From: a virus
IMG/VR virus record: IMGVR_UViG_3300033142_001338
Span: 1 to 44,915 of that record
Strand: one strand, 5' to 3'
DNA: 44,915 nt
The notes under the pieces were generated by a model that was given only the letters and a program-made list of their open reading frames with translations, did not search any database and was not told where the DNA came from. A program made the position numbers and the translations under genes. Of the stretch, positions 1,840 through 37,800 are shown one piece after another. Within the stretch, counting starts at the first letter, position 1, and every line of letters begins with the position of its first letter.

Positions 1840-2930
1840 TGGATAAAAAAAACATTAAACTGTTTTTACATAGTAATCTTACTGGAGACTCTTTAATTCA
1901 AAGAGATTTAACCAGAGGATTGAAAAAACATGGGATTGAATACGAATTATTTAAATTTACTCCTAATTTGTGCCATGAATCTCCACAAGAAGTATTAGGA
2001 ATGTTTGGGTACACAACCAAATATAATGTAAAAACTAGTAAGTGGCACCAAACAAAAAGGGCTATGCTAGACCTGCACAATAATCCTAAAACAACTTTGC
2101 TTTTAGAACAAGGTTTTGCAAAAAGAACAAGTTACAAGCAATTTCACACTCAAGCTAATCGTGAAGCAATTTATTCTGACGATATTTATTATTCTTTTGG
2201 GTGGGAAGATATTTGTGGTCTTGGTAATTATAAAAATGCAAATTCTCCAAAAGACCGTTGGGAAAAATTGGGCATTGATTTAAAAAACTCTGACTGGAAA
2301 TCAAAAGAACCCGTTTTAGTTTGCGGACAAATTAGAACTGATACAACGGTAGACTTAGAACCAACTGAAAATTGTTTAGAAGAAAATGCTGTTGGTGCTA
2401 AATTTACTCCACAACTAATGCGTTATTCATATGGTTGGCAATACGTCGAATGGGTAGTAGATGTATGTAAAAAAATTATTGACAGCGGAAGACCGTGCTG
2501 GTTTAAGCCTCATCCAAGCGAAATTGTAAAATATCTAAATGATCCAGAATGTTTAAAAAGTTTTTGGCTTAGAGTTTTGCCAAAAGAAGTTAAGATTATA
2601 TTGTCACATGAAAAATCAATCATGGACATGAAATATAACACTATTAATAAATTGGAAGATTTGTTGGATCAGGTTTATTGCACTATTTCTTATAGTTCAA
2701 ATTGCGGTGTTGAGTCTATTATTGCTGGAGTGCCTTCTTTGTGTGATAGCAAATATTCTATGATACATAGTTTAGTAGGAGGGAACTTGCAAGAAAAATT
2801 AAACGATTTAGAAAATATAAAATTACCAACAGAACAAGAACGTCTACAGTGGGCGTACAATCTTGCTTATGCACAATGGAATCCTGTAGAGATCGCTTCT
2901 GGAGAAGCCTTAGAACATATCTGGAACTAG
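1836..2930 (+). CDS. Capsule-synthesis/KpsS-like glycosyltransferase
   Basis: 364 residues with the organisation of GT-B-type capsule enzymes. It has an N-terminal Rossmann-like half, a KPHPSE motif at about 224-229, and YSSNCGVESIIAGVPS at about 286-301. The K-P-H-P plus S-S-x(4-6)-E-x(3)-G-x-P pattern is shared by KpsC/KpsS-type beta-Kdo transferases and related polysaccharide synthases that use CMP-Kdo, UDP or CDP donors. The CMP-sugar synthetase two genes downstream makes a CMP-Kdo or CMP-nonulosonate donor plausible, but that is inference from context. It overlaps the previous gene by 4 bp. A second in-frame ATG, one codon on, could equally be the start. Confidence 0.6.
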   Translation: MMDKKNIKLFLHSNLTGDSLIQRDLTRGLKKHGIEYELFKFTPNLCHESPQEVLGMFGYTTKYNVKTSKWHQTKRAMLDLHNNPKTTLLLEQGFAKRTSYKQFHTQANREAIYSDDIYYSFGWEDICGLGNYKNANSPKDRWEKLGIDLKNSDWKSKEPVLVCGQIRTDTTVDLEPTENCLEENAVGAKFTPQLMRYSYGWQYVEWVVDVCKKIIDSGRPCWFKPHPSEIVKYLNDPECLKSFWLRVLPKEVKIILSHEKSIMDMKYNTINKLEDLLDQVYCTISYSSNCGVESIIAGVPSLCDSKYSMIHSLVGGNLQEKLNDLENIKLPTEQERLQWAYNLAYAQWNPVEIASGEALEHIWN

Positions 2931-2942
2931 AAAGGGTTTAAA

Positions 2943-3308
2943 ATGAGTCATAAAACTCTATGCGGAGCAGTTCAATCAAAGCTGTGGGGGCATACCCAAT
3001 GTATTTTTGTTGGCCCTTTTTCCGAGCACCATTATTTAAAAATTAACAAAGGTGGTTATTGTTCAGAGCATTATCATGAACATAAGTGGAACCGATTCTT
3101 TTTAATTAGTGGAAGCTTAAAGGTTATTATCTACAAAGAGAACGGTCAAGATGAAACCGTACTACAGCCAGGAAATTTTACGGATGTTCCTCCTGGTGAA
3201 TATCATAAATTTGAAGCATTAGAAGATTGCGAATGTTTAGAAATTTATTGGACTGACGACCTTAAAACAGACGATATCTCTAGAAGATCAACAGGAGGTA
3301 ATCTTTGA
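2943..3308 (+). CDS. Small cupin-fold protein
   Basis: 121 residues forming one cupin barrel. Metal-ligand candidates are H43, H45 and H47 in the first cupin motif and H88 in the second (DVPPGEYHKF), joined by a turn around SGSLKV. Single-domain cupins in sugar clusters are often mannose-6-phosphate isomerase-like or nucleotide-sugar modifying enzymes. Here it lies between a KpsS-like transferase and a CMP-sugar synthetase, so a role in donor-sugar preparation is likely but unproven. AAAGGG lies 9 bp before the ATG. The stop overlaps the TTG start of the next gene (TTGA). Confidence 0.75.
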   Translation: MSHKTLCGAVQSKLWGHTQCIFVGPFSEHHYLKINKGGYCSEHYHEHKWNRFFLISGSLKVIIYKENGQDETVLQPGNFTDVPPGEYHKFEALEDCECLEIYWTDDLKTDDISRRSTGGNL

Positions 3309-4030
3309 AGAACTACATAATTATTCCTGCTAGAAAAGACAGTAAAAGACTTCCAGGTAAAGCTCTCTTAGAAGAAACTGGAAAGCCTTTATTTGTTCAT
3401 ACTTATGAAAGACTTAAAGTTTTACTTTCTTTTGGTTTAGTTGAGAAAATTTATGTAGCAACTCCTTGCGAAGAAGTTATTTGTGAGGCTGCTAAAAGAA
3501 ATATACCAACAATAAAAACACTTCCATCGCACTGTGGTTCACATGCTGCTATGAGGGCAGCCAAAATAATTAATGAATATTGTAATATTGTAAATGTTCA
3601 AGTTGATTATCCTTTAATTGATCCAGACTTAGTTCGCAGAATAATTACAAGGATTTATGAAACTGACTGTATTACCTCTGCTTATTATAAAACGAGTGAA
3701 AAAGATGCGGCTTTAAATCCTAATAATGTTAAATGCGTCATGAATATTAATAATAATGCGCATTATTTTTCTAGATCTGAAATCCCTTACAATTCAGACG
3801 AATGGAATATACATCTAGGAATTTACGGTTTTCCTTTTTCAAAATGGAGTGGTTTGAAAAATCTTTATATTCATGACAATGATTATCAGTGGTCAAATAA
3901 AGAAAATTTGGAACAGTTGATGTGGTTATACCATGGTTATAAAATTAACATGATTGAATCTAGTCCTTGTTTAGGAGTAGATACAGAGGAAGATTATGAG
4001 CAGTTCAAAAAAAATTATTCTAGTCGGTAA
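3305..4030 (+). CDS. CMP-Kdo / CMP-nonulosonate cytidylyltransferase (KdsB/NeuA-like)
   Basis: Activates an eight- or nine-carbon acid sugar by joining it to CMP from CTP. Residues 1-19 carry the family signature (IIIPARKDSKRLPGK), which binds the CTP phosphates, and a VDYPLIDPD block near 100 resembles the VQxDxPL(I/V)xP element of KdsB. At 241 residues it fits KdsB (about 248) better than many NeuA proteins. The start is TTG with a very good AGGAGGT eight bases upstream, and it overlaps the cupin stop by 4 bp. The end overlaps the next gene by 35 bp. It supplies a CMP-sugar, the donor class used by the GT29-like enzyme that follows. Kdo and sialic/legionaminic-type sugars cannot be told apart by eye. 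Confidence 0.85.
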   Translation: MKNYIIIPARKDSKRLPGKALLEETGKPLFVHTYERLKVLLSFGLVEKIYVATPCEEVICEAAKRNIPTIKTLPSHCGSHAAMRAAKIINEYCNIVNVQVDYPLIDPDLVRRIITRIYETDCITSAYYKTSEKDAALNPNNVKCVMNINNNAHYFSRSEIPYNSDEWNIHLGIYGFPFSKWSGLKNLYIHDNDYQWSNKENLEQLMWLYHGYKINMIESSPCLGVDTEEDYEQFKKNYSSR

Positions 4031-4556
4031 CGGCACAGATGCAGTGTCAAGAGAAGCTGGCGAGCAAATAGATTCTTTTGATGTTGTTGTTCGATTTAAT
4101 AATTTTAAAATTGAGGGGTATGAAAAAAACGTAGGAACAAAAACTGACATCTGGGCTACTAGAATGTGCGATACTATTGATCACACTGGCAAAGATGAAA
4201 ATGATTTTAAAATCATCTCTGTTATGAACTATTGTAAATGGACACGTTACATGTACCCACTAATTCCCAAGTGGTATGATAGATACCCAAATATGGAAAT
4301 TATTCGACCAGAAACAGTAAAACAATATAGCCGTGAATTTGATTACGATCCATTAAAAAATTGGTTGACGGTCGGATATATTATGATAAAATATTTTTTA
4401 GAACAATATGACAAGGTTTATCTATACGGATTTGGTGGTGATGTAAATTCTCATTACCATAATGTAAAACCTGCTGGCCAAGATCATCATAATTTTAAAT
4501 TAGAAGCAGAAAAAATTAAAGAATTGGAAGAAAAAGGAAAGGTCATAAGGATATGA
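3996..4556 (+). CDS. GT29 sialyltransferase-like enzyme
   Basis: 186 residues with a recognisable sialylmotif L: VGNGTDAVSREAGEQIDS at 10-27, then DVVVRFN and VGTKTD (46-51). This is the CMP-sugar-binding region of family GT29 (animal and some bacterial/viral sialyltransferases: VGNxxx..GxxID..D.V.R.N...VG.KT). The C-terminal third (VGYIMIKYFLEQYDKVYLYG, then HYHN and H-N/E-rich residues) corresponds to motifs S/VS. It is shorter than animal enzymes because it lacks a membrane anchor and stem. Translation starts inside the cytidylyltransferase gene, so donor synthesis and transfer are coupled. Transfer of Kdo or a nonulosonic acid to a glycan is the best guess. Confidence 0.8.
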   Translation: MSSSKKIILVGNGTDAVSREAGEQIDSFDVVVRFNNFKIEGYEKNVGTKTDIWATRMCDTIDHTGKDENDFKIISVMNYCKWTRYMYPLIPKWYDRYPNMEIIRPETVKQYSREFDYDPLKNWLTVGYIMIKYFLEQYDKVYLYGFGGDVNSHYHNVKPAGQDHHNFKLEAEKIKELEEKGKVIRI

Positions 4557-5850: not shown

Positions 5851-6063
5851 ATGACTCCACAAGAAGTTGTTCTACTGGCCGAGGAAATTGTTAATGCTCT
5901 GGATCTTGAGTTTTCTTTTACAGAACCAGGGGATAGGTCTACTGCTTTAAATCTAGTTGAACGAACTCTAATGGATGGACTCTATGTAGAAGAGGAAGAT
6001 GACTCTTATGAAGATCAATATGAATTTGATGATGTTGAACAAATTTTGTCGAGGTACGAATGA
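5851..6063 (+). CDS. Small acidic hypothetical protein
   Basis: 70 residues, strongly acidic in the second half (EEEDDSYEDQYEFDD). GAGAGGGT lies 9 bases before the ATG, a good ribosome-binding site. No family recognised. Its TGA overlaps the next gene's ATG (ACGAATGATG), so it is probably co-translated with the small membrane protein that follows. Confidence 0.7.
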   Translation: MTPQEVVLLAEEIVNALDLEFSFTEPGDRSTALNLVERTLMDGLYVEEEDDSYEDQYEFDDVEQILSRYE

Positions 6064-6266
6064 TGTCTAGAGAACAAAAAGAAGCTATTTATTTATCACT
6101 GTTCCCAATTGTATTGGGTATAATTCTTGGGGTATCTCATTATTATGAAAAGACAAAGGAAGAAACCCCACCTCCTGTTCAACAATTAGATATCGACAGT
6201 CAGTACGCCGAATCTCTTGGTTTAATATGTTGTTTTAAAGGGGTTAGTGCTGATGCGTTGGTTTAA
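6060..6266 (+). CDS. Small membrane protein
   Basis: 68 residues with one hydrophobic span at about 10-26 (LSLFPIVLGIILGVSHYY), then a charged/proline linker and the peptide DIDSQYAESLG. It overlaps genes on both sides. The IDSQYA segment is encoded by a 20-bp sequence repeated exactly in the exported protein gene at 6640. No family assigned; a small phage membrane protein of holin-like size is possible, but one span and no partner evidence make that weak. Confidence 0.6.
   Translation: MMSREQKEAIYLSLFPIVLGIILGVSHYYEKTKEETPPPVQQLDIDSQYAESLGLICCFKGVSADALV
6192..6211 (+). repeat. Exact 20-bp direct repeat, copy A
   Basis: ATCGACAGTCAGTACGCCGA, identical to 6799-6818 about 600 bp downstream. 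Both copies are read in the same frame and give IDSQYA in otherwise unrelated proteins. Confidence 0.85.
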
Positions 6267-6408
6267 ATTTGGAATTTTGTTACTTCTTGTTGTGTTGTTG
6301 TGGTTTTATTGGGTTCAAATCCTAAATTTTATCGCTATTGCATGTTTTATTATATACTACGTGTGTTGCAAAATGTTTGGCATTCCGTTGCCATCATTTG
6401 GCCCCTAA
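6253..6408 (+). CDS. Small hydrophobic protein
   Basis: A 51-codon frame overlapping the end of the previous gene (ATG at 6253). The protein MRWFKFGILLLLVVLLWFYW... is almost wholly hydrophobic, with one or two membrane spans and a Cys pair, ending FGIPLPSFGP. It fills the gap between 6266 and 6431. Coding is supported by the overlap and by a clean amphipathic-then-hydrophobic composition. No function can be assigned; lysis-accessory and envelope roles are open options. Confidence 0.55.
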   Translation: MRWFKFGILLLLVVLLWFYWVQILNFIAIACFIIYYVCCKMFGIPLPSFGP

Positions 6409-6430
6409 ACTTTAATTAATGAGGTGAATT

Positions 6431-6643
6431 ATGCCGTTGCCAAGTCAAGGTCCAGAAGAAAGCCGAAAAGAATTTTTGCAGCGTTGTATGAGCGACAGTG
6501 TTATGAAGAAGGAATATCGCGATTCAGATCAACGAATCGCCGTCTGCATTTCCAGAGTCTCTAGTAGTGACTCATCCATCTTAGATCAGGTGGACGATAT
6601 TTTATTTACGTTTAATTCTCAGGAAGAGGAAGAGGAATCATGA
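6431..6643 (+). CDS. Small phage protein with paired-Cys motif
   Basis: 70 residues. The core FLQRCMSDSVMKKEYRDSDQ followed by RIAVCISRV resembles a short Cys-x(n)-Cys module often attached to phage capsid or portal proteins (pattern F..RC...........Q..AVCIS). The tail is acidic (SQEEEEES). GAGGTGAA lies 5 bases before the ATG. The stop overlaps the next start (TCATGA). It may be a small virion or assembly factor, but only the motif resemblance supports this. Confidence 0.6.
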   Translation: MPLPSQGPEESRKEFLQRCMSDSVMKKEYRDSDQRIAVCISRVSSSDSSILDQVDDILFTFNSQEEEEES

Positions 6644-7131
6644 AGATTCTAACGTTTAGCGTATGTGCGGTTTTGTTTTTTTCTACAGTAGCTTCTGCCG
6701 CTGAAAAAACATGGACTTCTGATAAGTCTATTACAGAAATTATCAGCTCACTTCAAGATGATATTGTAGCACTGCAAGATGAAAAGTATTTTGACAGAAT
6801 CGACAGTCAGTACGCCGACTTTCTGCGAGATACTGACCTAGAGATTAGAACTTTGGGTCGAACAAAAGAAAGAACCTATCAACTAGACGTTGAACTGCTT
6901 TCCTCAAAAGGAAAGGTTACTAAATTTAATAAGAGTGTCTATGTTAAAGGGTCAGGAAATCAAACAATTATTCAGTCTAAGATTGAAATTGAATACGGAA
7001 AAAAGCACAGATTCCCATTTAGGTGGATTGACAAAATAAAGGACTGTGTTATATTTAAACTAGAGAATAAAGTTTTAGATTTCGAAGAATTTAAGTTTAA
7101 ACAATTTACTACAGAAAAGAAAGAAGATTAG
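6640..7131 (+). CDS. Exported hypothetical protein
   Basis: 163 residues with a clear signal peptide (KILTFSVCAVLFFSTVASAA, cleavage after about residue 20). The mature part starts with a helix (ITEIISSLQDDIVALQDEKY), carries the IDSQYA peptide encoded by the repeat at 6799, then alternates strands and ends acidic (TTEKKED). No family recognised. It overlaps the preceding small gene by 4 bp and is the first of several exported proteins in the window. Confidence 0.75.
   Translation: MKILTFSVCAVLFFSTVASAAEKTWTSDKSITEIISSLQDDIVALQDEKYFDRIDSQYADFLRDTDLEIRTLGRTKERTYQLDVELLSSKGKVTKFNKSVYVKGSGNQTIIQSKIEIEYGKKHRFPFRWIDKIKDCVIFKLENKVLDFEEFKFKQFTTEKKED
6799..6818 (+). repeat. Exact 20-bp direct repeat, copy B
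   Basis: Same 20 bases as 6192-6211, again encoding IDSQYA. It lies inside the exported-protein gene. Confidence 0.85.
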
Positions 7132-7132
7132 A

Positions 7133-7519
7133 ATGTCTAAGGAAATTGAATCGCTGATTTCAGGAGAAGCTGAACCAGAAGTAAAGTTGGTAAAACTCAC
7201 AAACGGAGAACAGTTCGTTGCCGCCGTTATTAAAATTGAGGAACAAGATTCTTTGGCAGTTTTTAATCCGTTGGTTCTAAACCTTGTTCCTGTAGATCAA
7301 GCGGGCCAACAAATGGGTGTTCAAACTAGACCATGGTTGATGTTTAATCGCTCTGATGAGGGAATTCAAATCAAAGCTTCTGAAGTTTTATGTATTACTA
7401 ATGTTGACCCACAAGTTTTAGACTTGTTTAATGAAAACGAGAATAGAATCAAGGAAGAGGCTCGTGCTACTGAATCAGGTATCGTCACTCCTCCAGAAAA
7501 AGAATTGGTTATTCCGTAA
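7133..7519 (+). CDS. LSm/Sm-like small phage protein
   Basis: 128 residues. The central strand order (VKLVKLTNGEQFVAAVIKIE, then AVFNPLVLNLVPV and PWLMFNRSDEGIQIKASEVL) resembles Sm-like beta-barrels found in marine T4-like phages, whose typical start is 'LxTGEEiIaxV...NPlxl'. Related host proteins (Hfq, LSm) bind RNA, so an RNA-related job is possible, and this genome is rich in structured RNA leaders. That link is inference. The stop overlaps the next start by one base (TAATG). Confidence 0.6.
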   Translation: MSKEIESLISGEAEPEVKLVKLTNGEQFVAAVIKIEEQDSLAVFNPLVLNLVPVDQAGQQMGVQTRPWLMFNRSDEGIQIKASEVLCITNVDPQVLDLFNENENRIKEEARATESGIVTPPEKELVIP

Positions 7520-7815
7520 TGAACACAGAAGATAAAAAACCAACGGTTCTAGTGGCAATTGATTGGGTTTGTGGATCAAGCTCAGAACCGTGTAGGGACA
7601 GGGTAGAACAAATAAACGAGTTATTTCATTCTAACTATGAAATTATATACTGGAGCCCTCTGGAAAGTTGGGTTCGTGGGGACGATTTTAAAAGTGGTTC
7701 ACAGTATTATGATCATATGCACCACAGTCTAATGGACTGGGGTTGTCGCTATTCTTCACTTGTTCTTGGAAAAGCTAAAGATCGCGTCCAATACGATATT
7801 TTTATCGGTGTATAA
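7519..7815 (+). CDS. Hypothetical protein, nucleotidase-like start
   Basis: 98 residues beginning with a hydrophobic strand ending in Asp (TVLVAIDWVCGSSSEPCRDR) and including YEIIYWSPLESWVRG and HHSLMDWGCRY. The opening resembles HAD-type or small phosphatase folds, but the second motif is not clear, so function is left open. Its last codons (GGT GTA TAA) are also the extended -10 element GGTGTATAAT of the next promoter. Confidence 0.6.
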   Translation: MNTEDKKPTVLVAIDWVCGSSSEPCRDRVEQINELFHSNYEIIYWSPLESWVRGDDFKSGSQYYDHMHHSLMDWGCRYSSLVLGKAKDRVQYDIFIGV

Positions 7816-12190: not shown

Positions 12191-12664
12191 ATGGACACGG
12201 AACAACAATTAAAGTCTTTATTAAGACATATAGATAATGTTAAAGTAAATTGCATTAAATTGGCGGATATCTTGGTAGATAAAGGAGAAAATGAGTTAGC
12301 TATACAGCTTATAGCCAATGGACACAGGCATGATAATTCAAAGTTTTACGGTATAGAATGGCTTTATCTAAATGATATAACTAAAGAGAAACAGCCAGAC
12401 TTATTTAAATCCGCAGTAACACATCATATAACCACTAATTTGCACCATCCCGAAGCGTGGGCAGGGGGAATCCACGAGATGGATAGGCTTCATCATGCAG
12501 AAATGGTGTGTGATTGGGCAGCACGTTCATCTGAATTTGGAACTGATTTAAGGACATTTTTAAAGGACACTGCTACTAAAAAATTTGAAATGCCTATTCA
12601 ATCAAAGGCATACAGAGAAATAAAAGAATTGGTCGATCTTCTTTTGGACAAGCCTTTTAAGTAG
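12191..12664 (+). CDS. DUF5662 family phage protein
   Basis: 157 residues with the DUF5662 pattern: GHRHDNSKF near 44-52 (HDxSKF), E and Y residues, then THHITTNLHHPEAW (HHxxxNxHHPE) and an MDRLHHAEMVCDW block. The many conserved His and Asp residues suggest a metal-dependent, HD-domain-like hydrolase, though no DUF5662 activity is established to my knowledge. It occurs widely in tailed phages. It starts 2 bp after the previous stop. Confidence 0.75.
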   Translation: MDTEQQLKSLLRHIDNVKVNCIKLADILVDKGENELAIQLIANGHRHDNSKFYGIEWLYLNDITKEKQPDLFKSAVTHHITTNLHHPEAWAGGIHEMDRLHHAEMVCDWAARSSEFGTDLRTFLKDTATKKFEMPIQSKAYREIKELVDLLLDKPFK

Positions 12665-12718
12665 CATCGAAAGGAAAAAATCTGAAATCCAGAATTCCTA
12701 TTTGATGAGGTGTTTAAA

Positions 12719-13510
12719 ATGATAAGAATTATCTTATTTTTAATATTCTTATTTTCTTGTGTGTCTAATGTTCAAGCTAAAGTATACAATATGAAAGAGA
12801 TGATGAAGGCTGTAGTAAGAATTCAGTCTATTGGTAATTATGGATCTGGGACGATATTTTCAGAAAGTAAAACGGCCTATAAAATTATTACTAATGCCCA
12901 TGTTGTAGGCGAATCATCTCTAGTAAGTATAGATCTTTTCGAAAATGGAAAACATTTTAAACGTGTTAATGGCAAAGTTTTGTGGAAACAATTAGATTCA
13001 AACCGTAGCATTGATCTTGCTATAGTTTCAATCAGTAAGGAAGATTTAGGAGAATATACTCCTAATATAATAGGTTTAGCACCCAGCGATACTGTTATAG
13101 AAAAGGGAAGTCCTGTGTATTCTATGGGATTTCCTCATGCTCGTTGGCCTATGGGATGGTGGGGAGAAATATTGGAGAGTGAAGACACTCTTTATTTTTC
13201 TCCAACTCCTTTCGCAGGGCAAAGTGGTAGTGCCATTTTTGCTAATATCGGCGAAGGTGACGACGTATGCACTAAAATTGTAGGAATCATAGGCTGGAAA
13301 ACCTGGGAAGATAAAATTTTATCATCAGGTAAACTAGGTGGGTATGGAATTGCCATGCATATTTCTGTTCTTTATGATTTAATGGGAGCTGGTAGCGATG
13401 AAACTAATAGACCTAATGTCAAGGCTAGAACAAAGACTGGAGAAATGGGAAGTTGGTATTGGAGAAATCCGCACGGGATTGACATATCTCAAAAAGTATG
13501 GGTACATTGA
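12719..13510 (+). CDS. Exported trypsin/HtrA-like serine protease
   Basis: About 263 residues: a signal peptide (MIRIILFLIFLFSCVSNVQA) then a chymotrypsin-fold protease. The catalytic triad is visible: His60 in TNAHVVG, Asp99 in SIDLAIVSI and Ser169 in AGQSGSAIF. It has no PDZ domain. The ATG at 12719 has GAGG 9 bases upstream and is preferred to the in-frame GTG at 12710, which overlaps that site. The 3' end overlaps the metalloprotease gene by 113 bp in another frame. It leads a run of exported proteins (12719-17951). Targets could be host envelope proteins or the neighbouring pro-metalloprotease. Confidence 0.85.
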   Translation: MIRIILFLIFLFSCVSNVQAKVYNMKEMMKAVVRIQSIGNYGSGTIFSESKTAYKIITNAHVVGESSLVSIDLFENGKHFKRVNGKVLWKQLDSNRSIDLAIVSISKEDLGEYTPNIIGLAPSDTVIEKGSPVYSMGFPHARWPMGWWGEILESEDTLYFSPTPFAGQSGSAIFANIGEGDDVCTKIVGIIGWKTWEDKILSSGKLGGYGIAMHISVLYDLMGAGSDETNRPNVKARTKTGEMGSWYWRNPHGIDISQKVWVH

Positions 13511-14603
13511 AAATATCAGAGAACTTACTCTAGGTGAAGTTCATGACGGTCTTGTTAAACTACAGGGACTAGCTGGTCTTATTACAGACGGCGAACTTGG
13601 CCCTAAAACATTAAGGGTTATGAATACCCCTAGATGTGCCTGTCCAGATTATTATAACGACGGTCACGACTTTGAAGTAGCAAGCATGGAAACCCTTTCT
13701 AATAAATGGGGAAGAAAAAATCTTAGCTATTTTATAGAAAAGCGGGACAACGATCTTTCTGCTCAAGAATGGGACGAGGCTATTGAAAAAGCTTTTACCC
13801 AATGGTCTGACGTAGCTGGTTTAAAATTTACCAGAAGTAATAGTAGAAGTAATGCTAATTTCATTATGTCTATTGGTGCTGGTCGAAGAGATCAGTTTGA
13901 TGGACCTGGAGGCACATTGGCATGGGCTCAGTTACCTCCTGGCAATAGTTTTAATGGACAACTTCTTTGTCGCTTTGATGAAGCAGAAACATGGGTTCTT
14001 AACAGAAACCAACGTGGAGTACTTCTTGTTAACGTAGCCTGCCATGAAATCGGCCATCTTTTAGGTTTGAGACATTCAAATGTTCAGACCGCATTAATGG
14101 CTCCTTTCTATAGTCCTGGTGTAACAAAACCACAATTAAAAGACGATGTTACAAGAATCCAGCGTCTTTACGGTAGACCTACTGGTGGCGGAGATGTCGA
14201 TCCTCCAGAACCTACTCCTCCAGAAAAACTGGCAGCACCCTCGAATTTAGAGGCTACGGCTATTAGTTCTAGTGAAGTTTCACTTTCTTGGGTTGACAAT
14301 TCCACGGGAGAGGATATATTTGAAGTGTATAGGAATAATATATATCAAGGAGGCGTTGGTAGAGGCAGAACATCAGCTACTGACATTAAGGTTCCGCAAG
14401 GAAATCATGTATACAAAATTAGAGCAAAAAAGGGAGACGTTAAGTCTGATTGGTCTAATACAGCCGAAGTAAGTGTTGGAGAGGAAACTGTTCCACCTGA
14501 ACCTGGGCCAGAACCCACGCCAGATGAAGAACTTGTTATTAATATTACTGGCGACATCAAAAACATCAGTATTCCAGGTTACAGGGTAAGTAAAATCGGA
14601 TAA
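13398..14603 (+). CDS. Matrixin (MMP-like) metalloprotease with pro-domain and Fn3
   Basis: 401 residues laid out like a matrix metalloproteinase. A peptidoglycan-binding-like pro-domain (about 27-75) is followed by the cysteine switch PRCACPD at 78-84 (MMPs: PRCGxPD), the zinc site HEIGHLLGLRH at 216-226 (HExxHxxGxxH) and a Met-turn in QTALMAPFYS. Then comes a Pro-rich linker, a fibronectin type III domain (about 280-360) and a short beta tail. The cysteine switch keeps MMPs latent until the pro-domain is cut, and a serine protease is encoded directly upstream. It has no signal peptide of its own and begins inside the protease gene, so either internal initiation or a frameshift fusion is involved. 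Confidence 0.85.
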   Translation: MKLIDLMSRLEQRLEKWEVGIGEIRTGLTYLKKYGYIENIRELTLGEVHDGLVKLQGLAGLITDGELGPKTLRVMNTPRCACPDYYNDGHDFEVASMETLSNKWGRKNLSYFIEKRDNDLSAQEWDEAIEKAFTQWSDVAGLKFTRSNSRSNANFIMSIGAGRRDQFDGPGGTLAWAQLPPGNSFNGQLLCRFDEAETWVLNRNQRGVLLVNVACHEIGHLLGLRHSNVQTALMAPFYSPGVTKPQLKDDVTRIQRLYGRPTGGGDVDPPEPTPPEKLAAPSNLEATAISSSEVSLSWVDNSTGEDIFEVYRNNIYQGGVGRGRTSATDIKVPQGNHVYKIRAKKGDVKSDWSNTAEVSVGEETVPPEPGPEPTPDEELVINITGDIKNISIPGYRVSKIG

Positions 14604-14621: not shown

Positions 14622-16538
14622 ATGATTAAGAAAGCATATTCTGTTCTATTGTTTTCACTGTTCTTTAGTTCGGTGTTACATGCTCAGGATGGACCCAAGT
14701 TAATCAATGAACCTGTAACAGAAGAAGTTATAGAAGTAATTGAATTTGAAAAATTGAAAACTCCTCAATCGGAAGTTGAAGACGCGATTCTATTCCTGTC
14801 TAAGCTTCCGAGCGAGGATGCTCAATTTATTCGATTCTTTTCTACCTATGCAGTACCTGCTGCTCAAAGGGAAGACGAAGTTCTAGTTCTTTCTTTTATT
14901 ATTCATAGTCTTATTGGGATTAGCGATGATCCCGATACTGGCAATGCTGGTGCCTACTATCCTCTTGCTGTACGTGACGACGATGACGTATTTAAGACTT
15001 ATCGTCAAGTGCCAGGAAGTGATACACTCTGGTGGATTGATCTTCGGGAATACAATTGGACCGCCGAAGCTTGGGAAACCATTAGTGACGGCGACGGCTA
15101 TTTTGCTGAACCGATTGTTACTGCTGATCGGAGTGGTGCTCTAAGGCTTCTTGCTGGCAATGCTATTGTGAGATCCGACTGGTTTCTTCATCATGCTATG
15201 AGCACAACTGCTCAACTAGATCTTGGTAAAGATATTAACTTTTACGATACTCTTCTGTACGCCAAGGCTACTAAAGCCCCGTCTACTATTGAAGAGTTTA
15301 GACAAGCATGGGGTTTAGACCTAACAAAAGCCAGAAAACTGGGAAATGAATATGGAACTCTAGTAACAAAAAGCAAGGCTGTTGCTACTCGTAATAGAAT
15401 GCTATTCGGGTATAGAACTGAACTAGGTTATCTTTACGAAACTTATGACGTTAATTTTCAGAATGGTAAGCGTGATTATCTTGAATCAATATTCTTAAAT
15501 AAAAGAATTGGTGGACCGCCAGATGTGTCTGATGCTGGTGAAGTATTTGCTAGTAACATGGTAGGTTTACAGGTATATGCACTTAGAGACGCTGCGGGAG
15601 ATCTTGTAGAATTCGGAGATCCTACTGTAGTCAGGCATATGGAAGACGTTCTCAGCGATCCTCGTGTAAGGGTTGCACACTCATGTTTGGATTGTCATGC
15701 ATCTGGACCTATTCCTTCTGAAAATACATTAGACGAATTTATTAGAGCAAATGCCAACTTAAAAACATATGATAAAGCTGATGCTCTTAGAATAAACAGA
15801 ACTTTACTTTCTGATAAATTTGAAGACTCTATTGCAGATAATCAGGTCTTATTTGCTAGAGCTGTTAAGAAAACTAATGGCCTTACTCCTACGGCAAATG
15901 GGTCAAAATATCTACAAAGAATTATTAGATACAACAGGTCAATTAATTTGGAGATTGCTGCATATGAATGTGGAACTACTCCAGAAGAATTAAGAACAAA
16001 GATCATGGAATCTCAATATAGATTTGGTGCTCGTTTGAAGTTGTTAGTAACAACTGGAGAATTGATTCCTAGAGATGTTTGGGAAGCACCAAGTGTAGAT
16101 GGAATTCCAGGTGGATTTCAGCAGGCCATGATTATGTTAAACGGCCTGACTATTGTGGAAGAAGAAGATCCAGGGATTCAAGTCCCAGTAGAAGAAGTTA
16201 TTATACAGGACGAAGTAGTGGAAGCTCCTCCTATTATTCAAGAAGTTGAAGAAGTTACTAATCCGCTTCGTGACCAAATTACTATACTTCAAGTAAGCTC
16301 ACAAAATGCAGAACTAAAAGCTGGGACAACGACTTTATTAACTCCTGCTGTTGGTTATCGTCTCTTCCCAACGGGTGAAGTTAGTGGTAGCTGGATTCAA
16401 GTTTACGCTATGGACGGGAAACTAGGGTATATCAAAGATACGATGGTCGAAGAAATCTCTGTGGATGTCCGAGAAGTAGAGGGAGATTTTAGCAGTCTAT
16501 CAAAAGAAAAATTAGAAGAGCTTATTAATAAAGAATAA
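14622..16538 (+). CDS. Exported c-type haem protein with SH3 tail
   Basis: 638 residues: signal peptide (KKAYSVLLFSLFFSSVLHAQ), a long alpha/beta region (about 45-330) without a family I recognise, a haem-attachment motif CLDCH at 355-359, a helical part, a Pro/Glu/Ile-Val linker (about 505-545), and a C-terminal SH3-like barrel (about 555-625, ending GKLGYIKDTMVEE). CxxCH covalently binds haem c outside the cytoplasm if host cytochrome maturation is present. Large CxxCH proteins with SH3 ends are frequent in Planctomycetes-type secretomes. Phage-encoded ones are very unusual. GAGGAAAG precedes the ATG. Confidence 0.75.
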   Translation: MIKKAYSVLLFSLFFSSVLHAQDGPKLINEPVTEEVIEVIEFEKLKTPQSEVEDAILFLSKLPSEDAQFIRFFSTYAVPAAQREDEVLVLSFIIHSLIGISDDPDTGNAGAYYPLAVRDDDDVFKTYRQVPGSDTLWWIDLREYNWTAEAWETISDGDGYFAEPIVTADRSGALRLLAGNAIVRSDWFLHHAMSTTAQLDLGKDINFYDTLLYAKATKAPSTIEEFRQAWGLDLTKARKLGNEYGTLVTKSKAVATRNRMLFGYRTELGYLYETYDVNFQNGKRDYLESIFLNKRIGGPPDVSDAGEVFASNMVGLQVYALRDAAGDLVEFGDPTVVRHMEDVLSDPRVRVAHSCLDCHASGPIPSENTLDEFIRANANLKTYDKADALRINRTLLSDKFEDSIADNQVLFARAVKKTNGLTPTANGSKYLQRIIRYNRSINLEIAAYECGTTPEELRTKIMESQYRFGARLKLLVTTGELIPRDVWEAPSVDGIPGGFQQAMIMLNGLTIVEEEDPGIQVPVEEVIIQDEVVEAPPIIQEVEEVTNPLRDQITILQVSSQNAELKAGTTTLLTPAVGYRLFPTGEVSGSWIQVYAMDGKLGYIKDTMVEEISVDVREVEGDFSSLSKEKLEELINKE

Positions 16539-16544
16539 TATTTT

Positions 16545-16615
16545 CTTCCACCAATAAAGGTGAGTTTTGCGGTTCTCATCCGAGGTGGAAGCATCACCAA
16601 AACCGCATATTTTTT
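16545..16615 (+). ncRNA. Pseudoknot leader element, copy 3
   Basis: Outer stem CTTCCACC (16545-16552) pairs with GGTGGAAG (16584-16591); other copies have CCATC/GATGG, so one pair has changed on both sides. Inner stem GGTGAG (16559-16564) pairs with CTCATCC (16575-16581). Loop TGCGGTT (16568-16574) pairs with AACCGCA (16601-16607), again a two-sided change. It is followed by T-rich sequence to 16615. It starts 6 bp after the haem-protein stop with no strong promoter, so read-through or RNA processing may supply it. Confidence 0.85.
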
Positions 16616-16656
16616 AAAGGGGAACTTTTATTCTTGTAAATAAATCTTATATAAGT

Positions 16657-16666
16657 GGTGTATAAT
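16657..16666 (+). promoter_or_regulatory. GGTGTATAAT promoter motif
   Basis: GGTG joined to TATAAT (16661-16666), 38 bp before the cytochrome-like gene at 16704 and just after pseudoknot copy 3. No good -35 at 16-18 bp. Confidence 0.5.
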
Positions 16667-16703
16667 AATAAATGGATTTCACTCACTTATTTAGGATTTT
16701 ACA

Positions 16704-17459
16704 ATGATTAAGAAAATTTTCTGCATATTCCTGGCAATTTGGACAGCCAGTAGTTCTCCTATTTTTGCTGGCGGTTTTAAAGGACGAAAAATCGTCTGTC
16801 AGCCAATAGTTAAGCAACAAATTATTCAAGATCACGTTGTTCAACAATTTAACGTTGTTGAAAATGTGGATGTAATTCAAAAGCAAGTTCAATTTGATGC
16901 TGATTATTTTCTAGGTATGAATGGTTATTATGATGTAGTTAATCAGTTGCAAGCCCAAGAGATTAATGCTGACAAAGATATAATCTTAAAGCAATCAGAA
17001 CAAGTGGACAGACTGATTAGACTTCTAGAAGAAAGCTTATTAAAAAATTCTACAAGTAATGCAAGTAATGATTCTCAACCAACCCAAGAAGAGCCAGTAG
17101 AAGAGCCACAGGACGATACAACAACGGTTGAGTCGACAGAAACAGACGGAATAGTCCAATTGAATCAAAAGGTTTTTACTATTTTCTCTGAGAATTGTTC
17201 TTCTTGTCATGGTCAATCTTCTCAAAAGGCTGGTTTGCAATTAGTAGGCGAAGAAGAAAACGGGGAGAAATGGTTGGCGGACCTCCCTTTGTCAGACAGA
17301 GTTTCTACTTATGATCATGTCGCTGGAATTAATCTTCAAGCAAGAGGTAAAAAGTTAATGCCTTTGGGCGGTCCAGCCCTTGCCGATGAAGATGTTGAAG
17401 CTATTCGTCTTTGGATGGTAGCAAAAACTGAGGAAAATAAGGAAGCGGTTGCTCAATAA
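16704..17459 (+). CDS. Exported cytochrome c-domain protein with VQ-rich N-terminus
   Basis: 251 residues: signal peptide (MIKKIFCIFLAIWTASSSPI, cleaved near AGG), a Val/Gln-rich region (IVKQQIIQDHVVQQFNVVEN) from about 35 to 65, a helical/acidic spacer, and a compact C-terminal cytochrome c domain. Haem ligands are C165, C168 and H169 (CSSCHG) and probably M219 in KKLMPLGGP. The sequence after CxxCH (QSSQKAGLQL) is like the planctomycete cytochrome domain ('...GGLRL'). It would carry or transfer electrons in the periplasm if matured. The VKQQ(I/V)(I/V)Q core is shared with the next gene, suggesting an exchanged domain. Confidence 0.8.
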   Translation: MIKKIFCIFLAIWTASSSPIFAGGFKGRKIVCQPIVKQQIIQDHVVQQFNVVENVDVIQKQVQFDADYFLGMNGYYDVVNQLQAQEINADKDIILKQSEQVDRLIRLLEESLLKNSTSNASNDSQPTQEEPVEEPQDDTTTVESTETDGIVQLNQKVFTIFSENCSSCHGQSSQKAGLQLVGEEENGEKWLADLPLSDRVSTYDHVAGINLQARGKKLMPLGGPALADEDVEAIRLWMVAKTEENKEAVAQ

Positions 17460-17498: not shown

Positions 17499-17951
17499 AT
17501 GAAAACCAAACTCGCTATTTTTACCGCTTTTGTTGTGGGTGCAATCGCCGCCTGCATGATTATGCCCTCAGAAGCTGAGGCAACTGGCGGACTTTTTTCA
17601 CGTAGAAGAGTTGTTCAACGACAAAGAGTCGTAGTTCGGCCCCAAGTTCAACGAGTTGTCAAACAGCAAGTCGTTCAACAGAATAAGGTTGTCGAAAGAG
17701 TTATTGTTAATAACGGTCATTATGGTTATGGCGGACAACAGATTATCCAGAGAAATGTTATCGCCGTTCCTCAAAGAACCCTTAGAATTGTAGAAGTACC
17801 ACAAGTACAGCTTCAAAGAAGTTATGTAATTCAAAGAAATCAGGTCGGCAATGTTCTTAACGTTCAACGTAGAAATGTTGTCGAAGTACAAAAACAAAAA
17901 GTTCGCGGTAATAAAATTATTGTCGAACAAAACGTAATTAGAGGTTACTAA
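17499..17951 (+). CDS. Exported Val/Gln/Arg-rich repeat protein
   Basis: 150 residues: signal peptide (KLAIFTAFVVGAIAACMIM..., cleavage near AEA), then almost entirely V-Q-R-x repeats such as RVVKQQVVQQNKVVERVIV, with a short GHYGYGG patch. Alternating hydrophobic and polar residues predict long beta strands, possibly an amyloid-like or solenoid surface protein. It shares the VKQQ core with the upstream cytochrome protein. CAAGGTTAAT precedes the ATG. No catalytic residues visible. The low complexity makes homology searches unreliable. Confidence 0.7.
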   Translation: MKTKLAIFTAFVVGAIAACMIMPSEAEATGGLFSRRRVVQRQRVVVRPQVQRVVKQQVVQQNKVVERVIVNNGHYGYGGQQIIQRNVIAVPQRTLRIVEVPQVQLQRSYVIQRNQVGNVLNVQRRNVVEVQKQKVRGNKIIVEQNVIRGY

Positions 17952-17952
17952 A

Positions 17953-18294
17953 ATGGGAATTGGTTCCATGAAGGATAGAGCGGTAAATAACTTTACTGCT
18001 AAAAATCCTACTGCTGCATTTGATCCTGCGTCAGTTATTTTAATTGTTGACTTGATCATGCAGTTTATTCAAATGTTTCAAGACTGTAAGAAAGACGCCG
18101 ACGAAGCCGTGGAACATGCTAAGAATCCAACATTCTTAATGAAGAGAATCGTTCATCTGCGAACTCGCAGAGAGCTTGGAAGAAAAGCTTATAAAGAACA
18201 CGGTAGAGATATGGCTGAAGCTATTATTGAGGCTGGCGGTGACGTTACTCTCGAAGAAATGGTAGCAGCTTACGACGAAATCGAAAACAATTAA
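17953..18294 (+). CDS. Small helical protein
   Basis: 113 residues starting 1 bp after the previous stop. It has a hydrophobic segment at about 24-42 (FDPASVILIVDLIMQFIQMF) then charged helices (DADEAVEHAKNP, RIVHLRTRRELGRKAYKEHG) and an acidic end. No signal peptide. It could be membrane-associated or a small virion component. It is the last gene before a terminator and so closes the exported-protein transcript. Confidence 0.7.
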   Translation: MGIGSMKDRAVNNFTAKNPTAAFDPASVILIVDLIMQFIQMFQDCKKDADEAVEHAKNPTFLMKRIVHLRTRRELGRKAYKEHGRDMAEAIIEAGGDVTLEEMVAAYDEIENN

Positions 18295-18996: not shown

Positions 18997-19174
18997 TAAA
19001 TGTAAAGCTCGATACGTCGTAGAACAAATTGATTGTGATAATGACAATAGAATCACGCCCAATGAAAGAGTTTGGAAAATTCGGGATCTTCAAACTGATC
19101 ATCTTGGTTTTGCATCTTATATGACAGAAGAAAGAGCAAAAGTTGCAGCGGAAAGGAAAAATTGGTCGCCGTGA
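18989..19174 (+). CDS. Small hypothetical protein
   Basis: 61 residues. The ATG overlaps the previous stop (TAATG..TGA), and AAGGAAAGGG lies just upstream. The stretch VEQIDCDNDNRITPNERVW is EF-hand-like (DCDNDNRITPNE), but only one copy is present and the calcium loop is imperfect. Function unknown. Confidence 0.6.
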   Translation: MSDKCKARYVVEQIDCDNDNRITPNERVWKIRDLQTDHLGFASYMTEERAKVAAERKNWSP

Positions 19175-19821
19175 TATCTCATGAGAAAAATTTTATATTC
19201 ATACACATTCCTAGATGTGCTGGAAATTCTATAGAAAAAGTATTGGAAAAATGGTCTAAAGAACTTAGATCAGCGTCTGCTTTACAACGTCAAGGTTTTA
19301 GGCCTAATTTCTCAGAAAGACATTTTACTTTAAATCAATATGCTGACGAAGTAGATATCTCAAAGTTTTTTTCTTTTGCTATAGTTCGGCATCCTTTAAC
19401 AAGAATGCGGTCTATATACAAATGGGGCATTGAAATTATGCCAAAAATAATTAGAGGAGAATCTGCTAATTTTAAGAATCATCATACTTGGAAAAGTAAA
19501 AGTTTTGATGAATGGGTGCAGTCTGAAGAATGGATGCGGTCAAGACAAGTGATATATAAAAATAAAAAAGGAAAAATAATTCCAGCATTTAATAAAACTC
19601 AAAGAGAATGGCTTTGTATTAATAATAAAATTCGCATAGATTATTATGGAAAATTTGAAGATTTAAATAATTCTTGGGGTTATGTTTGCAACAAATTGAA
19701 TATTAATGAACCTTTGCCGTTTATGCACAGCACGTCAAATTCAAACATTGACTGTAGTAAAAAAACCCAGGCAATTATTGAAAACCATTTTAAAGAAGAT
19801 TATGAAGAATTTAATTATTAA
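19162..19821 (+). CDS. Sulfotransferase family protein
   Basis: 219 residues with both PAPS-binding elements. The 5'-phosphosulfate loop is FIFIHIPRCAGNSIEKVL at 11-28, and the 3'-phosphate site is FAIVRHPLTRMRSIYKW at 72-88. This matches the carbohydrate sulfotransferase (Sulfotransfer_2-like) family, which transfers sulfate from PAPS to sugars. No membrane anchor, so it acts in the cytoplasm on a soluble or lipid-linked glycan. TTG 19162 has AAGG 5-6 bases upstream; GTG 19171 is an alternative that overlaps the previous stop (GTGA). It could sulfate products of the phage glycosyltransferases. Confidence 0.85.
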   Translation: MVAVISHEKNFIFIHIPRCAGNSIEKVLEKWSKELRSASALQRQGFRPNFSERHFTLNQYADEVDISKFFSFAIVRHPLTRMRSIYKWGIEIMPKIIRGESANFKNHHTWKSKSFDEWVQSEEWMRSRQVIYKNKKGKIIPAFNKTQREWLCINNKIRIDYYGKFEDLNNSWGYVCNKLNINEPLPFMHSTSNSNIDCSKKTQAIIENHFKEDYEEFNY

Positions 19822-20277: not shown

Positions 20278-21531
20278 ATGATTAAGTTCAAAAGAAATGC
20301 CAAATTTTGGGGATTAGATCTTTCAGAGCTTGAAGAAGATTTTAAAAAAGAACTTGAAACTCAGAGAAGAATTTCTAAGCATGTTAGAAATATGATTAGA
20401 AATGGTGAAATTACATGGATTACATCAGATAAAGATCTTATACTTGCAGATGGAACCAAGCAAACAAAAGCAAAATTTAAGGATTCTATTTCTTATTTGT
20501 TTGACGAAGATGCTTGCAGCGAATCAATGAAACGCAACTGCGTGATAACTGTCCTTCATAGTTACCGTGGCTACTGGCAAAGAAATAAAGACAGGATTCT
20601 TGACATCAAATGTCCTATTGGATTTAAGTATAAATCTTTTAGGTTTAACGAGGCCGCGATTAAGGTTGATAAAGAAAATAAAGTTCTTCTTGTTAAAACA
20701 ATGTATATGCCTACAGGTAAATTTAGAAAAGTCCCCTACAAGTATAGTTTAAAGGAAGATCTTATTACAAAAAAAGAGTTTGGCGGCAACATTTCTTTCA
20801 CGCAAAAATGCTTTGTTGCTGGAATTAATGTTGAAGTAAATGAATACGTTTCCAATGATATCCTTGCTTTCGATATTAATAAAGATTCTAAATCTTGGAT
20901 ATATTTTAATGACGGAACTGTAATCACTAAGCCCGAAACCTTGATTAAGTTAGAAAAAGAAATCAAAGAAATTAATCATTCTTTAGACAAAGATAAAAAG
21001 GTTCCGATTAAAAAGAGAGAATTAAGATCTAAACAACGTAGAAAGCTAAGATTGCAAATTCAAAAAAAGCACCAAAAAGCCAATGGAATTGTTTTTAAAA
21101 TTTGTAAAGATATTCTGTCAACAGTTATTAAAAACAAGCAATTACTTTGCATTGACGGTGTAAGCATTGCGACAGCTGGAACTTTTGGGCAAGATAAAAT
21201 TATCCCAAATCTGCGAACAATGTGTGAAAATCAAGGAGTTCCTTTTTATGTAACTCCTACTACAAATACTTCTAGAAGGTGTGCTCTTTGTGGACACATA
21301 CATAAAAATAACAGAAAAACTGCTGACGAATTTCACTGCATTGAATGCGGGCATCAAGACAACGCGCAATTAAACGCAGCGCATAATATTGCCCATACAG
21401 GAAAAAGATTCTTAGACGTTGGAGTTCCTTTTGGGAGTTGGGATCATCGAAATGCGGATAAGTTAGTCGAAGAATATACTGTTGGCGACAAAGCTGAAAA
21501 CTCAGAAGAAATGGCAATTGATTTTGAATAA
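20278..21531 (+). CDS. TnpB-like (OrfB/Cas12-ancestor) protein, probably nuclease-impaired
   Basis: 417 residues, the usual TnpB size. Order: N-terminal basic/helical part, RuvC-I (LAFDINKDS, D199), a Lys/Arg-rich helix, RuvC-II (LLCIDGVSIATAG, D293 where TnpB has Glu), zinc ribbon C335/C338 and C354/C357, and RuvC-III (HQDNAQLNAAHNI). Counting back from NAA, the positions of the usual catalytic Asp (DRDxNAA) are N362 and Q364; an Asp sits one place earlier (D361). So two of three acidic sites are altered. The last residues EEMAIDFE copy the tail of the SSB encoded 11 bp downstream. No TnpA or element ends are seen. A domesticated, RNA-guided binding protein is a reasonable reading. Confidence 0.85.
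   Translation: MIKFKRNAKFWGLDLSELEEDFKKELETQRRISKHVRNMIRNGEITWITSDKDLILADGTKQTKAKFKDSISYLFDEDACSESMKRNCVITVLHSYRGYWQRNKDRILDIKCPIGFKYKSFRFNEAAIKVDKENKVLLVKTMYMPTGKFRKVPYKYSLKEDLITKKEFGGNISFTQKCFVAGINVEVNEYVSNDILAFDINKDSKSWIYFNDGTVITKPETLIKLEKEIKEINHSLDKDKKVPIKKRELRSKQRRKLRLQIQKKHQKANGIVFKICKDILSTVIKNKQLLCIDGVSIATAGTFGQDKIIPNLRTMCENQGVPFYVTPTTNTSRRCALCGHIHKNNRKTADEFHCIECGHQDNAQLNAAHNIAHTGKRFLDVGVPFGSWDHRNADKLVEEYTVGDKAENSEEMAIDFE
21508..21531 (+). repeat. Tail repeat shared with ssb, copy A
   Basis: The last 24 bases of the tnpB-like gene match the last 24 bases of ssb (21888-21911) at 22 positions, including an unbroken ATTGATTTTGAATAA. They encode EMAIDFE and EMSIDFE. Confidence 0.85.
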
Positions 21532-37112: not shown

Positions 37113-37800
37113 AAAAACTGAAAAACAACCAAAGCACCGTTCGCCTTCTGCTAAAACTCCTGTGCAAAGGCATTATATCAAAGAAATTCTTGCAAAGGAC
37201 ATTGTAATTTGTCAAGGTCCAGCAGGAACAGGCAAAACTCACTTGGCAGTTGGTATGGCTGTTAGTAGTTTAAGAAAAGGTGAGGTTCAGCGAATTATTA
37301 TCGCTAGACCTGTTGTAGAGGCTGGTGAACAGATTGGGTTTTTACCAGGGGAACTTGAAAAGAAAATGAACCCGTTTGTTCGCCCTTGTCTAGATGAATT
37401 ATCCGAATATGCTTCTAATAGTGAAATTGTTGCATGGCAGAATGAGGGCATTTTAGAAATTGCCCCCATTGGGTTTATGAGGGGCAGAACTTTTAAAGAT
37501 TCCTTTATTGTCTGCGACGAATGTCAGAATCTGGATTTCAACCAAATGGAAATGTTGCTGACTAGATTTGGAATGCAGTCGAAAATGGTTTTAACGGGTG
37601 ATGCCTCTCAGTCTGACCTATTAAAGAATAATCAGGGTGCATTTGCCTATGCTTGTGCTTTATTCGAGAATGATGATGAAATCTCAGTAGTACACTTGGA
37701 CAATAAGGACAATCAGAGAAATCCTTTGGTTGGTAAAATTATAGATAAATGGAAAAGCAACCTTTACAAGTTCAAGGAAACTGGTAAAATAAATGAGTGA
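37105..37800 (+). CDS. phoH: PhoH-like ATPase
   Basis: About 231 residues. Walker A GPAGTGKTH at about 38-46, ARPVVEAGEQIGFLPG in the sensor region, GRTFKDSFIVCDECQN as Walker B, and LTGDASQSD are diagnostic of PhoH. The protein is an RNA/DNA-linked ATPase, common in marine and T4-like phages; its job in phages is unsettled. Start choice: TTG 37105 has GGGGGAG nine bases upstream inside the nrdJ end; GTG 37084 would add seven residues without a good site. It overlaps nrdJ by 8 bp and the next small gene by 8 bp. Confidence 0.9.
   Translation: MSRKTEKQPKHRSPSAKTPVQRHYIKEILAKDIVICQGPAGTGKTHLAVGMAVSSLRKGEVQRIIIARPVVEAGEQIGFLPGELEKKMNPFVRPCLDELSEYASNSEIVAWQNEGILEIAPIGFMRGRTFKDSFIVCDECQNLDFNQMEMLLTRFGMQSKMVLTGDASQSDLLKNNQGAFAYACALFENDDEISVVHLDNKDNQRNPLVGKIIDKWKSNLYKFKETGKINE

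Follow-up and report, generated by a model that had tools for sequence, protein, structure and literature searches.

Two apparently exported proteins with CxxCH haem motifs form a conserved gene pair in at least 13 viral records

Can a virus encode exported proteins that bind haem covalently, and if genes of this kind are found side by side in a viral sequence, do they belong there and what might their products do? These questions are raised by two neighbouring genes, here called P1 and P2, in IMG/VR virus record IMGVR_UViG_3300033142_001338. The stretch analysed (the window) is this whole record of 44,915 bases; no larger genome stands behind it. An earlier sequence-only reading had described P1 and P2 as a pair of exported proteins with c-type haem, encoded by a phage. 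Its open reading frames (ORFs), coordinates and protein lengths were all recovered, as were the CLDCH of P1 at residues 355-359 and the CSSCHG and Met219 of P2. The two genes and their motifs are as follows.

14622..16538, + strand: P1, exported (by hydropathy) protein of 638 amino acids with one CxxCH motif (ORF; relatives in 12 other viral records)
15684..15698, + strand: codons for CLDCH of P1, residues 355-359 (sequence, motif position)
16704..17459, + strand: P2, exported (by hydropathy) protein of 251 amino acids, its C-terminal part a cytochrome c domain of class I with CSSCH at 165-169, Met219 and Trp237 (ORF, Pfam, invariant residues)
17196..17210, + strand: codons for CSSCH of P2, residues 165-169 (sequence, motif position)

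P1 and P2 recur together as a conserved cassette, in no fewer than 13 viral records; as a correction to the earlier reading, they are not a one-off. Searching 50,697 catalogued phage records with tblastn gave P1 in one, the 595-kb LR756511, where a diverged P2 follows directly after P1; P2 of the window had no match among these records. Near-absence from catalogued phages, as had been proposed, was thus borne out. Further relatives came from scans of viral contigs, followed by profile searches. With the profiles, both P1 and P2 were found at neighbouring positions in 13/13 viral records examined (the window and 12 others), and only in L012 are they separated, by one small ORF. L005 was left out of the 13; its P1 and the P1 of L004 are identical. 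Four large records (LR756511 and contigs of 341, 343 and 254 kb) contain a T4-type portal and terminase, and so genuine large tailed phages are among the carriers of the cassette.

The rarity of c-type cytochromes among catalogued phages is what one would expect if the window were an assembly chimera or contained cellular contamination. Window positions 12191-44658 have a collinear counterpart in an independent viral contig of 76 kb (G009, locus L019). This contig shares the gene order DUF5662, trypsin-like protease, matrixin, P1, P2, VQ-rich protein and 113-amino-acid protein, with 37-67% identity inside this block and 31-76% over the remaining collinear genes. The proposed clustering of the pair between proteases and a VQ-rich exported protein was confirmed. 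Because of the synteny with an independent contig and the recurrence of the pair in 12 other viral records, a chimeric join is very unlikely and a chimeric contig was rejected; with four of the 13 records also carrying a T4-type portal, the probability left to chimera or contamination is close to negligible.

Among window ORFs of at least 90 amino acids, CxxCH motifs were found in P1 and P2 only. From composition, about 0.10 such motifs would be expected in all + strand ORFs taken together; when each protein was shuffled, the motif arose with a probability of 0.00015 for P1 and 0.00065 for P2. The motifs are not attributed to chance because they are invariant in relatives. Both N-termini resemble signal peptides as judged by hydropathy only, in agreement with the signal peptides that had been proposed.

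Class I cytochromes c have a CxxCH motif that holds the haem, a distal Met-Pro and an aromatic residue in the C-terminal helix. In P2 the motif extends to CSSCHG, starting at residue 165, and C165, C168, H169, M219, P220 and W237 are invariant in both alignments of relatives (P135 is invariant too, in one of the two). The Met-Pro (M219-P220) lies 38-54 residues past the first Cys across relatives. The check suggested earlier, a hidden Markov model search against cytochrome families, recognised P2 in Pfam and left P1 unmatched. P2 scored 21.8 bits with Cytochrom_C (cut-off 21.3) and, with CBB3 (cut-off 27), 26.5 bits in one run and 28.5 in another; no PHROGs family was found for it, and its N-terminal region is long and of low complexity. 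Read from sequence, the pattern of P2 is that of a His/Met class I cytochrome c, which would bind haem, and P2 belongs to an already known kind of protein. A likeness of P2 to the planctomycete cytochrome domain had also been suggested. PSCyt1 (PF07635) matched P2 of the window at 24.2 bits (cut-off 22), covering profile positions 1-20 of 59 only, and P2 of L018 at 24.4 bits over positions 1-58; L019 scored 18.3 bits, under the cut-off, and L012 and L002 were unmatched. Other planctomycete-specific domains were not found in P1, P2 or the neighbouring proteins scanned. What stands of this suggestion is a weak resemblance.

For P1, 15 sequences were aligned, including a bacterial plasmid protein described below. 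The CxxCH motif is invariant in 15/15, as are R184, F188, Y208, R259, G269, D304, E307, G315, G362, R484 and E488; a second conserved His or Met was not found across the 15. No Pfam, PHROG or NCBIfam family scored above cut-off, no cytochrome model matched, and no solved structure gave a meaningful score. A test of P1 as a di-haem cytochrome c peroxidase or MauG failed, as P1 has a single CxxCH where two are required and matches no such family. Compared with class I cytochromes c, P1 has the CxxCH but neither a conserved distal Met/His nor a model match. P1 does not amount to a canonical cytochrome c domain. The earlier proposal of exported c-type haem proteins encoded by a phage is supported. 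P1 appears to represent an undescribed protein family, as far as the libraries searched go. Since its CxxCH is invariant and no other His or Met is conserved, we infer that P1 binds haem covalently and leaves the second axial position open, which would make it a redox enzyme or a gas-binding protein, not a relay. Two scans of a genome collection, made with short patterns only, gave no cellular relatives, but one of these patterns would also miss the bacterial protein below, so that cellular relatives are under-sampled and their absence is not shown. A second, shorter P1 paralogue was observed in three large phages (L009:9725-10903, - strand; L030:9092-10288, - strand; L031:9804-10952, + strand). 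These paralogues are unlinked to the cassette and lie directly downstream of an exported cysteine-peptidase-like gene, with no P2 alongside.

Distances between P1 sequences and between P2 sequences are correlated (Mantel r 0.94, p 0.0001), and the two genes overlap in L018. A plasmid protein of Neorhizobium petrolearium, WP_227705619.1 (1157 amino acids, annotated as a c-type cytochrome), contains both types of domain: residues 370-445 are a P2-like cytochrome domain and residues 476-948 the P1 domain (hhalign probability 99.9, E 9e-36), with two further cytochrome c domains in the same polypeptide. Of the evidence gathered, this fusion speaks most strongly for joint action of P1 and P2. The gene adjoining that of WP_227705619.1 encodes a ferric-reductase-like flavoprotein; the fusion suggests a chain that would start at a membrane reductase and reach P1 by way of cytochromes. 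The phage records yielded no Cytochrom_C_asm gene, and haem maturation is therefore probably performed by the host.

The overall reading, to which we assign a probability of roughly 0.5, is that P1 and P2 form a partner cassette which would be exported, matured by the host and used as a short periplasmic redox chain at the envelope. Both proteins would cross the infected cell's inner membrane and receive covalent haem from the host cytochrome c maturation system. P2 would be a small His/Met-ligated class I cytochrome c ferrying electrons, and P1 a larger single-haem protein in which the haem probably serves as an open site for catalysis or gas binding and not purely as a relay. The chain would link a host donor or acceptor, P2 and P1, and would operate at the envelope during infection alongside the co-encoded exported proteases. 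The presence of the proteases hints at the envelope as the site of action, but no step connects them to the haem proteins. As for its chemistry, P1 might, at a guess, reduce a small oxidant such as peroxide or nitric oxide. A more specific proposal, held tentatively and at a little short of even odds, is that with P1 a new family of single-haem c enzymes has its first described member, and that diverse large phages retain P1, together with its carrier P2 and the exported proteases, as a redox device dedicated to the periplasm and used in infection.

Several points weigh against the partner-cassette reading. The substrate of P1 is guessed, and haem binding is a prediction for both proteins. P1 matches no cytochrome model. 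Co-inheritance alone can yield the correlation of P1 and P2 distances, and the second-locus paralogues of three phages indicate that P1 may function without a phage P2.

The earlier reading had put forward, as possibilities, an effect on host respiration and a role as surface decoration. The likeness of P2 to cytochrome c6 and cbb3 subunit III domains would fit a respiratory role, in which P2 is an extra soluble carrier (c6/c553-like) from host complexes to a terminal oxidase, sustaining respiration during infection, and P1 has an accessory or docking function. Some phages do possess redox auxiliary genes, for example on soxC/soxD contigs (PMC8190135). This role is nevertheless considered unlikely: P2 has its long low-complexity N-terminal region and is always accompanied by P1, the size and conservation of P1 exceed what docking would need, and an oxidase gene was not seen beside the cassette. 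One may also take the failure of all cytochrome models to match P1, together with its unconserved distal ligand, to mean that P2 is the sole cytochrome and that the CxxCH of P1 is a metal site or redox disulfide in some other enzyme or binding protein. The invariant His of this motif (15/15), the apparent export of P1 and the fusion of its bacterial homologue to three recognised cytochrome c domains make this rather improbable.

A structural role was considered as well, with P1, P2 and the low-complexity protein placed in the virion or in a host-surface coat and haem serving stability or cross-linking. The exported low-complexity neighbours would fit such a role, one of them being weakly extensin-like and some Tyr-rich, and in one large phage a head-tail adaptor gene is found about 7 kb away from the locus. 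Signal peptides, however, argue against assembly of a virion in the cytoplasm. Peroxidase cross-linking of Tyr-rich neighbours was rejected as a common function, as Tyr amounts to 0-3% in the window lineage, and we give the structural role only a slim chance.

Around the P1/P2 cassette the following genes belong to the block that is collinear with the related contig.

12191..12664, + strand: DUF5662 protein, bounding the collinear block on the left (Pfam PF18907; 67% identity in related contig)
12710..13510, + strand: exported trypsin-like serine protease, conserved cassette member (Pfam Trypsin_2, 35.1 bits; collinear in related contig)
13398..14603, + strand: matrixin (M10) metalloprotease, conserved cassette member (Pfam Peptidase_M10, 4.8e-37; collinear in related contig)
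17499..17951, + strand: exported V/Q/R-rich low-complexity protein after P2 (ORF)
17953..18294, + strand: 113-amino-acid protein, last conserved gene of the block (collinear in related contig, 50% identity)

The matrixin also gave a weak N-terminal peptidoglycan-binding match and a weak fn3 match. Its ORF overlaps that of the trypsin-like protease by 113 bases (window 13398-13510), with no overlap in the related contig; a later start of the matrixin or a frame change at 13398-13510 may be the cause. P1 usually has a protease gene before it: a matrixin lies upstream of P1 in the window, L018 and L019, and a papain-like protein precedes P1 in L002, L003, L004, L010, L011 and L013 (the Pfam Peptidase_C1 matches tested were just under cut-off). 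No recognised protease was found directly upstream of P1 in L012, L015 or L017. P2 is followed by a low-complexity exported protein in 11 loci examined. Just downstream of the cassette in the viral contig of L019, a DUF1501 protein with a twin-arginine type signal was observed (L019:7220-8446); DUF1501 was rejected as a regular cassette member, being present in 1/11 records searched. A sulfotransferase-like gene lies downstream of the cassette in the window (19162-19821).

Phage-type genes in the window encode a ribonucleotide reductase, a UvsX-like recombinase and a TnpB-like protein; further genes encode PhoH, dUTPase, thymidylate synthase, dCMP deaminase and a single-strand binding protein, and there are four tRNAs. 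The TnpB-like RNA-guided endonuclease ORF (window 20278-21531) adjoins three of the tRNA genes. Capsid, portal and terminase genes were not found in the window, where only phage-type metabolism genes were seen. A weak terminase match at 37144-37596 was rejected, this being the PhoH gene. A split polymerase gene was observed in L026, where two separate ORFs, 2483-4390 and 6026-7729, match successive halves of a single phage DNA polymerase family (phrog_405 positions 42-611 and 623-1064) and lie about 1.6 kb apart. Regarding the host, PSCyt1 above cut-off in two P2 members and one DUF1501 gene hint at bacteria of the Planctomycetes-Verrucomicrobia-Chlamydiae (PVC) group. These signs conflict with the ribonucleotide reductase of the window, whose nearest relative is from a Rhizobium phage, and with the rhizobial P1/P2 homologue, the sole bacterial one found.

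Reports of the P1/P2 pair were not found in the open-access literature, and cytochromes go unmentioned in the main text of the huge-phage paper; to the extent searched, both P1 and the cassette are new. What recurs is a linked pair of apparently exported proteins with invariant haem motifs, in phages of up to 595 kb, at a time when phage redox auxiliary genes are already known. The pair suggests that large, distantly related phages install a small redox system of their own in the envelope of the infected cell. If true, some phages would run redox chemistry outside the inner membrane, dependent on host cytochrome c maturation. P1 defines a family unmatched in Pfam, PHROGs and NCBIfam, and its fused bacterial relative makes the partnership with P2 testable.

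Comparison with known systems gives likeness and difference in each case. P2 resembles class I cytochromes c (PF00034 and PF13442; c6 and cbb3 subunit III type) in its CxxCH, distal Met-Pro, C-terminal Trp and apparent export, and differs from them in its long low-complexity N-terminal region, its constant linkage to P1 and its scores, which are only around the cut-offs. In PVC bacteria, PSCyt1 is usually accompanied by other planctomycete-specific domains (PMC5615132); P2 of the window and of L018 share with it a CxxCH stretch above cut-off, and in one related contig a DUF1501 gene follows the cassette, whereas P1 and P2 are without another such domain and the remaining relatives tested are under the cut-off. 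WP_227705619.1 likewise combines a P2-like and a P1 domain, in this order, but in a single polypeptide with two more cytochrome c domains, beside a ferric-reductase-like neighbour and on a bacterial plasmid. Phage contigs with a gene for a c-type cytochrome subunit have been described, carrying SoxD and other redox auxiliary genes (Kieft et al., 2021, PMC8190135). The P1/P2 cassette is like these in placing a c-type cytochrome subunit gene on a phage; compared with phage SoxD, its haem motifs are invariant across a cassette that has otherwise diverged.
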